Assembly: GCF_001263175.1 (NCBI RefSeq)
Contig: NZ_CP012332.1
Span: 1,609,501 to 1,673,500, forward strand
Length of the DNA stretch: 64,000 nucleotides
From: Vulgatibacter incomptus
Lineage (GTDB): Bacteria > Myxococcota > Myxococcia > Myxococcales > Vulgatibacteraceae
Reading direction: 5' to 3'
Shown piece after piece: positions 37,889 through 40,131 of the stretch (position 1 is its first letter; each line of letters starts with the position of its first letter). The notes beneath the pieces were generated by a model, which worked only from the letters and a program-made list of their open reading frames with translations, did no database searches and had not been told where the DNA came from. The translations under genes and the position numbers were made by a program.

Positions 37889-38515
37889 TCACGTCGGCGC
37901 TGCGCGCCGGACCGAGCGCCACCCGACCCGGAGCAGCCATGAGTGCGGGAGGGAGACGGTCGGATCTCCAGGACCGGCCGCGAAGGGGTCCGCGGCGATC
38001 GGAGCCGGCCGGCCCTGCCGCAGCGCGTGGACGCGGGCGTTGCCCAGCACGTAGGCGATGGCGTTCCGAACCTCGCGCGGCGTGCGCAGCACGTGCGAGT
38101 GGAAGCGGTCGGCGAACACCCTGCCCTTGCGCTTCATGAGGCGGTTGAGGCCGCGCGCGATCCGCACGCAGAGGCCCTGCACCCCGCGCGAGAGCGCCTG
38201 GCCGTCCCGCGCCTCGACGACGAGGTGGAGGTGGTTCCCCTGCACCGAATGGTGCGTGAGCCTCATGCCCAGCCGGTCCGAGCCCGCGAACAGCGCCTTC
38301 TCGAGGATGCGGTAACAGCGCTGCGTCCGAAGGTTCCAGACCTCGTCCCGCATCCGCAAGGTCACGTGGACCGGATACCGGCTCGCAAGCGGTCCGCGTG
38401 CCTCGTGCGAAACGCCCGCCCTCGACCCGGCGGGCTTCCGCCCGGCGCCGGCACGCTTCCCTCCCCACGTCGGCAGTCGAAACTCCATCTGCGTGGCTTT
38501 GGTCCGCTTCGCCAT
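37889..38515 (-). CDS. REP-associated Y1-type transposase (RAYT/IS200-like)
   Basis: The product is 208 aa, starting at ATG 38515 with GGGGGAA at good spacing. The N-terminal RxGAGRK motif (GGKRAGAGRKPAG) and PVHVTLR are typical of chromosomal TnpA_REP proteins. The HUH motif appears as HLHLVVEA (about residue 105). The candidate catalytic Tyr is in NAIAYVLGNARVHA (about residue 165). These single-copy, non-mobile relatives of IS200 transposases act on REP palindromes. Three copies of a palindromic repeat lie elsewhere in this window, although none directly flanks the gene. Confidence 0.88.
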   Translation of the reverse strand: MAKRTKATQMEFRLPTWGGKRAGAGRKPAGSRAGVSHEARGPLASRYPVHVTLRMRDEVWNLRTQRCYRILEKALFAGSDRLGMRLTHHSVQGNHLHLVVEARDGQALSRGVQGLCVRIARGLNRLMKRKGRVFADRFHSHVLRTPREVRNAIAYVLGNARVHALRQGRPAPIAADPFAAGPGDPTVSLPHSWLLRVGWRSVRRAAPT

Positions 38516-38608
38516 TGCGTTCCCCCCGGAACTTGATTCGGCAATGATTCTCTCACGAATGGCAGACCGGCACAAGGGGTGTCGGGTTTGATCCGGGGTC
38601 CAGACCGG

Positions 38609-38684
38609 GTACATCTCTGACACTCGAGCCCGGGGACATTCCTGACGCTCTTCTTCGAAAGCCCATAGACATCCGTGACACTCG
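38609..38684. repeat. Three imperfect 17-bp direct repeats upstream of the transposase gene
   Basis: The pattern ACATnnnTGACnCTC occurs at about 38611-38625 (ACATCTCTGACACTC), 38636-38650 (ACATTCCTGACGCTC) and 38669-38683 (ACATCCGTGACACTC). The region 38516-38747 has no gene. The words resemble outer ends of insertion elements whose ends read GTGTCAGAGATGTACCC, so a degraded element or stacked ends is likely; this is inference. Confidence 0.55.
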
Positions 38685-38747: not shown

Positions 38748-39068
38748 CTAGCCGATCGTCCGCTCGCGGCGGAGCTCCACGATCACCTCGCGGGCCCCCG
38801 AGACCTTCCGACAGTTCCAGGTGAAGCCGAGCTGGCGGGCCTGGAGAAACAGGGCCATCACCTTCGGGAAGAGCGGCACCCCGACCGCGGCAGCGGCGAC
38901 GCCCAGCTTCGTTCCGGGGAAGAGGCGCCTCGCGATCCCCGGGAGCATCGCGGCGCGGCGCCCCTCCACGATCAGATCGACGTCCGCGCCCTTCGAGGCG
39001 GCCTCGAGGAACCGCGCCGAGAGCTCGAACGCGGGCAGGGATTCGCGGAGGAGGACGACGTCGGGCAC
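38748..39068 (-). CDS. Orphan hypothetical protein
   Basis: The product is 106 aa, starting at GTG 39068; no clear ribosome-binding site is seen. It begins MPDVVLLRESLPAFELSARFLEAASKG and has a hydrophobic middle (TKLGVAAAAVGVPLFPKVMALFLQ). The amphipathic pattern looks like a folded protein, but I do not recognise it. It lies alone between the transposase patch and the nucleotidyltransferase module. Confidence 0.5.
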   Translation of the reverse strand: MPDVVLLRESLPAFELSARFLEAASKGADVDLIVEGRRAAMLPGIARRLFPGTKLGVAAAAVGVPLFPKVMALFLQARQLGFTWNCRKVSGAREVIVELRRERTIG

Positions 39069-39116: not shown

Positions 39117-39686
39117 TCAGTCCTCGGATTCTCTTCGTGCCTTTTCGAGGAGGTCATCTACCCCCAGAGCGGCAGACCAGCGGGCGAGGTAATCCCCGTC
39201 CAACTCCGGCCCCGAGATCCGGAAGACTTGCACGACATCCCGCCATTGCGTGCTGGAGAGCTCGCCACCGGAACGGAACCAGAGCAGCTTGCGGAGGATG
39301 GTGTCCTCCGCGGATTTGACGAACAGCCGATGTCCCGGGCGAATCTCGATGGCCCTTCGTCTGGTGAACTCCTCCTCGTCAAAGGGGCCAGAGCGGCGGA
39401 TGAAGAGGTCGATCTTCAGGGCGGTGGGAAGGTAGAAGATGTTCCAGGAGCTCTTTTGGGCTGCCGCTTCCCGGAGCGCCTCGTCGTCGACCTCGAAATC
39501 GGGGCCAAGCGCGGAGACGAGGGCGCTCACCTGATCGGGCCGCAGGTCGACGACGAAATCCAAGTCGTTCGTCGCGCGGGGCTCGCCCTGCAGCGAGCTC
39601 GCCAGGCTACCTCCGAGAAAGTAGCCGGCGCCGATTCGTTCGAACGCGCTCCCGAGTCGGAGCGCGACGTCGAGGATGTTCTCCAT
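39117..39686 (-). CDS. Nucleotidyltransferase-fold protein of a two-gene module
   Basis: The product is 189 aa, starting at ATG 39686. The signature of pol-beta-type nucleotidyltransferases is FLGGSLASSL followed by TNDLDFVVDL (about residues 24-48), giving the GGS and DxD elements. LKIDLFIRR supplies the third acidic position (about residue 94). The C-terminal half is helical (SAEDTILRKLLWFRSGG, then QWRDVVQVFRISG). It starts two bases after the stop of the small upstream gene, so they are co-translated. The pair resembles MNT/AbiEii-type toxin-antitoxin modules, but neither role is shown by sequence. Confidence 0.82.
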   Translation of the reverse strand: MENILDVALRLGSAFERIGAGYFLGGSLASSLQGEPRATNDLDFVVDLRPDQVSALVSALGPDFEVDDEALREAAAQKSSWNIFYLPTALKIDLFIRRSGPFDEEEFTRRRAIEIRPGHRLFVKSAEDTILRKLLWFRSGGELSSTQWRDVVQVFRISGPELDGDYLARWSAALGVDDLLEKARRESED

Positions 39687-39688
39687 CG

Positions 39689-39922
39689 TCAGCCTCCCGA
39701 CTCTCGGCTCCGAGACCGGACTCCGTAGACGACCTCCATGAACCGCTCTCGGAGCTCGACGTCGGAGGCATTCGGATGACGAGCCCGGATCCCCAGCCGG
39801 GTCATCTCCCGGGCCGCCGACGTCAACGAGGCGGCCGCCTCCAGGCGCTCGACCTCGGACTTGGAGCGGAGCAGCTCGACGTAGCGGCGACGGGCTTCGG
39901 GGCGAGTGTCCTGTTCCATCAT
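39689..39922 (-). CDS. Small helical partner of the nucleotidyltransferase
   Basis: The product is 77 aa, starting at ATG 39922 (or 39919). It is charged and helical ([28 protein letters not shown], then [20 protein letters not shown]). Small proteins with the pattern RYxELLRxxxxxxRLxxA...RxRHPxxSxxELxxRF are often encoded directly before nucleotidyltransferase genes; that memory needs a search to confirm. Position and size fit an antitoxin or cofactor. Confidence 0.72.
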
Positions 39923-39997
39923 GTGAACAGGATACCATCCTCCCGCCGGAGCACCGTTCCGTTGGCCTTTTGCGACCATCATCACTAGAGTCCCGCC

Positions 39998-40082
39998 ATT
40001 CGCTCGGGGCGCGTCCGCAGACGGACGCTGAGATGAACCCGTGGAACCTGATCCGGTTCGAACCGGCGGAGGGAAGCGATGC
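39998..40082 (+). promoter_or_regulatory. TPP (THI-box) riboswitch
   Basis: The conserved words are present in order: CTCGGGGCGC, GACGCTGAGATGAACCC (CUGAGA pyrimidine-sensing bulge), GAACCTGATCCGGTTCGAACCGGCGGAGGGAAGCGA. P1 pairs TCGCT (40000-40004) with AGCGA (40075-40079). It lies 50 bases before thiC and should lower thiC expression when thiamine pyrophosphate is abundant. Confidence 0.95.
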
Positions 40083-40131
40083 GTGGGCACGTCCGTCCTC
40101 CGACTCAAGCTACCTGCCCGGAGGACATTCG

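Follow-up and report, generated by a model that had tools for sequence, protein, structure and literature searches.

A probable MenAT1-type toxin–antitoxin operon in Vulgatibacter incomptus, with fused and order-reversed relatives

In the window analysed here, a 64,000-nucleotide stretch of the Vulgatibacter incomptus genome, a gene for a small helical protein is followed almost directly by a gene for a nucleotidyltransferase, and the question is what such a pair does. The first-pass annotation read it as a toxin–antitoxin or phage-defence module and ranked it as the most plausible undescribed system of the stretch. The toxin–antitoxin part of that reading is backed by the fold, the catalytic residues, the co-occurrence of the two genes, the disrupted toxins found beside intact antitoxins and the patchy distribution, and the pair is very probably (a probability of about 0.82) an operon of the MenAT1 type. 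Its kind is already described, with structures 8AN4/8AN5 in the PDB and two papers devoted to it (PMC10435456, PMC11375011). Phage defence fared worse: neither protein matched the PADLOC models (2023 library), 50,697 phage records gave no match, and a scan of viral contigs with a 28-row profile returned 17 pattern matches and no relative.

The source genome is a single contig of 4.35 Mb with one copy of the pair (Table 1). Both open reading frames, with the two bases between them, lie where they had been annotated, and they can be taken as real genes because the same pair recurs in the same order in Myxococcus, Pyxidicoccus, Archangium and a Myxococcales MAG, with identities of 53–61% for the toxin and 39–49% for the partner. 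A GGGAGG read from the sequence precedes the toxin ATG inside the final codons of the antitoxin gene, so that coupled translation of the two genes is plausible. Promoter and terminator scans at the operon found none, and the repeats listed around it look like chance matches. An inverted repeat (AGGAT-acc-ATCCT, 39929–39941) lies just upstream of the antitoxin start, and could be an operator or a product of chance. The pair had also been placed beside transposase remnants; a transposase-like frame does lie about 500 bp away (NF047646, 35.6 bits, below the cut-off of 80), but the wording was loose, as an unmatched 106-aa frame intervenes. The near-repeats acatctctgacactcg / acatccgtgacactcg at 38611–38684 resemble old insertion-sequence ends. 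The G+C content is 0.615–0.65 over the toxin and about 0.69 in the surroundings, a weak sign that this region may be of foreign origin.

Table 1. Features of the operon, of its surroundings and of the fused relatives. Positions in the first seven rows refer to the window; those of the fusions are given by locus.
Feature	Position	Strand	Evidence or remark
MenT1-like nucleotidyltransferase, putative toxin, 189 aa + stop	39117..39686	minus	ORF, second gene of operon
MenA1-like (PF18993) putative antitoxin, 77 aa + stop	39689..39922	minus	ORF, first gene of operon
Two-base gap between antitoxin and toxin genes	39687..39688	minus	sequence
REP-associated tyrosine transposase-like ORF, 244 aa, HLH (HUH-type) motif	37889-38623	minus	weak NF047646 match
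106-aa ORF between transposase-like ORF and toxin	38748-39068	minus	no Pfam/NCBIfam match
tyrS			transposase-side neighbourhood of operon
TPP riboswitch of divergent thiC	39995-40091	plus	other flank of operon
Fusion ORF, L018/L104	1224-2042	minus
Fusion ORF, L068	1707-2555
Fusion ORF, L070	1710-2570
Fusion ORF, L071	1614-2576
Fusion ORF, L072	1710-2564
Fusion ORF, L073	1695-2570

The putative toxin scores 20.9 bits against the Pfam AbiEii model (PF08843), under the cut-off of 22.5, which makes it a remote relative of the family rather than a model-level member. AbiEii is the DUF1814 superfamily of MenT toxins. An AlphaFold2 model built only from this protein and four of its relatives (mean pLDDT 91.9) bears out the pol-beta fold first assigned to it, as the model of the partner bears out its helical nature. 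Among 350,542 PDB chains, the top five Foldseek matches of the toxin model are all MenT1/MenAT1 chains (best E 3.8e-7), and a second structural alignment again puts MenT1 first (8an4_A, Z 15.3, 174 aligned residues, rmsd 3.9), followed by ANT(2'')-Ia (Z 13.2), 5uvd (13.0), MenT3 (6y5u, 11.9) and MenT4 (6y56, 8.3). A sequence profile of 28 toxin homologues also matches 8an4, with an E of 3.3e-6. Points against the MenAT1 reading include the identity to MenT1, which is only about 20%, and the position of ANT(2'')-Ia, a drug adenylyltransferase, close behind MenT1 in fold; the weak structural match of the partner to MenA1 and the changed contact residues, both described below, also count against it. 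As this enzyme and 5uvd are the closest non-MenT folds, it could be argued that the gene encodes an ANT(2'')/LnuA-like nucleotidyltransferase that modifies antibiotics, and that its small neighbour is unrelated to it. That is very improbable, since MenT1 comes first in both structure comparisons, the profile finds MenT1 by sequence and no drug enzyme, and a conserved partner would be left unexplained.

The register of the same profile places E35, R37, T39, D41 and D43 at MenT1's own residue numbers (in the numbering of the papers), within the motif G25-G26-S27 ... R37-A-T39-N-D41-L-D43 ... K91-I-D93 ... E127-D128 ... K133 ... Q147-W-R-D150. Across 56 aligned homologues R37, S/T39, K133 and D150 are invariant, while D41 is kept in 54 and D43 in 55. 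In MenT1 the phosphate is accepted by T39, the metal is held by D41 and D43, and toxicity depends on D41, K137 and D152 (PMC10435456, PMC11375011). Order and spacing, rather than a residue-level superposition, make K133 and D150 the likely counterparts of K137 and D152.

The partner had been placed outside the classical antitoxin families, a view that is not supported: it matches PF18993, 'Rv0078B-related antitoxin', with 28.1 bits against a curated cut-off of 27.1 (E 2e-6). It is also above the cut-off in a PF18993 search of its own genome, and 12 of 30 members of the partner family match the model at E 0.01. Rv0078B is MenA1, the antitoxin of Mycobacterium tuberculosis MenAT1 (PMC10435456). 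The AlphaFold2 model of the partner consists of three helices (residues 8–19, 23–48 and 54–66), and its best structural match is MenA1 (8an5_C), a weak one (Z 5.5 over 50 residues, Foldseek E 9.6), in which partner residues 19–68 align with MenA1 2–51. Because the match covers only these residues, the N-terminal helix, which carries a conserved D-T-x-P-x-x-x-x-R-Y stretch, is an addition. Sequence searches with the partner were less informative: against the PDB they returned only repeat-protein (PPR) artefacts, with single-stretch i-Evalues in the thousands, and did not reach MenA1, and tblastn against plasmids gave nothing at E 0.01. With so short a query tblastn is blind at this distance, as fused copies do exist on plasmids and none was found.

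Two small adjacent genes, one of them for a minimal nucleotidyltransferase, also make up the well known HEPN-MNT (type VII) pairing (PMC2701414, PMC7641770), where the nucleotidyltransferase is the antitoxin and AMPylates a small HEPN RNase toxin. Such a reversal of roles is hardly credible here. The partner matches PF18993 and no HEPN family, its sole R-x6-H (R42-H49) is not kept among its homologues, where the position of H49 is taken by H, F, Y, N, M, E or G, and the genes found disrupted are the toxins, not the partners.

A failure of homologues of the two proteins to co-occur had been named in the first-pass annotation as grounds for abandoning its reading; in a sample of 195 Myxococcota genomes they do co-occur. 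In a first round, 36 of 44 toxin places (E<=1e-20) had the partner next to them in the same orientation (upstream in 33, downstream in 3), and of 34 partner places (E<=1e-10) 32 had an adjacent toxin. With a better profile made from 30 partners the toxin places that have one rise to 39–40 of 44, through gains at L074 and L075 (downstream), L079 (upstream) and, marginally, L077. Weak PF18993 matches also come from the small frames upstream of the toxin at L076 (E 0.0012) and L078 (E 0.063). At L076, L077 and L078 the upstream partner is 52–68 aa long, nearer to the length of MenA1, and is devoid of the N-terminal helix stretch. Eight nucleotidyltransferases of 59–86 bits with no detected partner (L080, L085, L087–L092) were set aside as outside the family or uncertain, and are not counted as orphans. 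Of 149 good Myxococcota genomes 45 carry the module, a patchy distribution, and it is absent from the sole other genome of the source's family.

The way in which these loci decay bears on which of the two genes is toxic. Away from contig ends, and as measured by profile coverage, an intact partner stands beside a truncated or split toxin at L048, L057, L081, L095, L098, L107 and L108, and at about four further loci the partner is present with no toxin. The reverse, an intact toxin with its partner missing, was seen three times (L093, L069 and L080). In the clearest orphan, L093 of genome G059, the active-site D43 is replaced by A, turning DxD into DxA, and K91 by E, so that this nucleotidyltransferase looks inactivated; at L069, on a Planktothrix plasmid, an IS701 transposase gene lies directly upstream of the partnerless toxin; and the L080 toxin is very divergent. 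Toxins disrupted and antitoxins kept is the asymmetry to be expected of a nucleotidyltransferase that does harm when the small protein is missing. It supports the assignment of the nucleotidyltransferase as the toxin and falls short of proof, because assembly errors in draft genomes could swell the disrupted class.

The proposed model takes the tRNA target, the nucleotide, the complex, the phosphorylation and the growth arrest from MenAT1, while the family, fold, catalytic residues, pairing, gene order and disruption asymmetry are observed at this locus and its relatives. The toxin would bind NTP-Mg through D41 and D43 and add nucleotides to the 3' CCA end of tRNA, pyrimidines and mainly C by analogy with MenT1; the extended tRNAs could not be charged, and translation would stop. 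The helical partner of 77 aa, whose gene comes first on the shared mRNA, would bind across the active-site face and block it, and would also push the T39 loop toward the bound nucleotide, causing the enzyme to auto-phosphorylate on T39. If the antitoxin or ATP were lost, the toxin would be set free and growth would be arrested.

The relatives include forms that depart from this two-gene arrangement. A tblastn search of plasmids with the toxin returned six homologues, five of which are fusions of 282–320 aa whose N-terminal part matches the partner profile (Herpetosiphon, E 6.7e-9; two from Nostoc, 4.6e-6 and 5.9e-6; Calothrix, 6.1e-10; Pseudanabaena, 1.4e-4). The Myxococcota locus L018/L104, in a draft genome, is also a single open frame (partner-profile E 1.2e-18). 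The fusions span Myxococcota, Chloroflexota and Cyanobacteria, and a tree built from 48 toxin domains needs at least three changes of state to place them, which points to three or more origins. On the same tree five order-reversed pairs, with the toxin first (L035, L036, L074, L075, L094), form one clade with a support of 100/98; the reversed order is also seen at L095–L097. The fusions at L068 and L071 follow a gene for an XRE-family regulator. Two fusions, L068 and L072, have lost D41; these two, from Herpetosiphon and Pseudanabaena, have G at this position. In MenT1, replacement of D41 by A ends toxicity (PMC10435456).

These fused relatives sit oddly with an addiction module. The pair could instead be a tRNA- or RNA-modifying enzyme whose activity is set by a permanent regulatory subunit, a standing inhibitor or activator that responds, for instance, to the ATP level. 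Proteins arising from at least three independent partner–enzyme fusions would be unable to free a toxin through antitoxin decay, and MenAT1 itself shows a nucleotide-dependent inhibition by MenA1, via auto-phosphorylation, and no transcriptional autoregulation (PMC11375011). For the two-gene pair this explanation is nevertheless unlikely, given the patchy distribution, with absence from the only other same-family genome, the disrupted toxins beside intact antitoxins, and the toxicity of the relative MenT1, from which MenA1 rescues (PMC10435456). The preferred reading is a toxin–antitoxin operon of the MenAT1 type. For the wider family a bolder view can be put forward only tentatively, with the odds against it: MenAT1 may be a small offshoot of a large family that spans several phyla and whose inhibitory helix has been repeatedly fused to the enzyme (at least three times independently) or moved downstream of it, and the fused forms may act as self-inhibited, nucleotide-sensing tRNA nucleotidyltransferases, or as dead-enzyme regulators where D41 is lost, and not as addiction-type toxin–antitoxins.

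The pair is, on good support, ordinary in kind, a MenAT1-type toxin–antitoxin in a new lineage. The authors of the MenAT1 study counted only 21 MenA1 homologues, 15 of them adjoining a menT gene (PMC10435456), and the system has so far been studied in one pathogen. A sequence family that shares its fold, its active-site residues and its partner is now seen to be common among Myxococcota and to occur in Chloroflexota and Cyanobacteria as well, which offers harmless model organisms and many natural variants (order-reversed, fused, D41-less) for testing how the antitoxin helix controls the enzyme. Neither fusions of the two proteins nor Myxococcota were found mentioned in PMC10435456, PMC11375011 or the searched titles and abstracts, a search outside which most subscription papers lie; although the kind is known, the branch in myxobacteria and their relatives, with its swapped and fused cousins, was not found described in the searchable papers. 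A specialist's second look would best go to the fused and D41-less relatives.

Among known systems, HEPN-MNT (HepT-MntA) shares the two-gene module with a minimal nucleotidyltransferase, and differs in its roles, which are reversed, and in its HEPN domain and conserved RX4-6H, neither of which is present here. MenAT3 and MenAT4 (Rv1044-Rv1045, Rv2827c-Rv2826c) and AbiE have in common with this pair the DUF1814/AbiEii-superfamily toxin fold and an S/T phospho-acceptor before DxD, but they carry large AbiEi/COG5340 antitoxins and toxins of about 290 aa, whereas the partner here has no such domain. Membership of AbiE or MenAT3-4 was considered and rejected, as the partner has 77 aa and three helices and matches PF18993 only, and the toxin is under the PF08843 cut-off. 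The MenA1-MenT1-like fusions (Haur_5016 on the Herpetosiphon plasmid pHAU01, and those on Nostoc, Calothrix and Pseudanabaena plasmids) contain both domains in the order antitoxin then toxin; they differ in forming one chain, annotated as hypothetical proteins, and in the loss of D41 in Herpetosiphon and Pseudanabaena. MenAT1 (Rv0078B-Rv0078A of M. tuberculosis; PDB 8AN4, 8AN5, 8RR5) is the nearest system. It shares the small helical PF18993 antitoxin gene upstream, a DUF1814/AbiEii-type nucleotidyltransferase of about 190 aa with the fold over its full length and a helical C-terminal domain, and the positions of E35, R37, T39, D41 and D43. Apart from the low identity and the extra N-terminal helix ahead of the MenA1-like part of the partner, the differences concern the contacts: F28 and F38, which hold MenA1 in MenT1, are L28 and A38 here, and the gamma-phosphate contact R40 is replaced by N40. 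As F28, F38 and R40 are not conserved, the interface of the Vulgatibacter pair must differ in its details from that of MenAT1.
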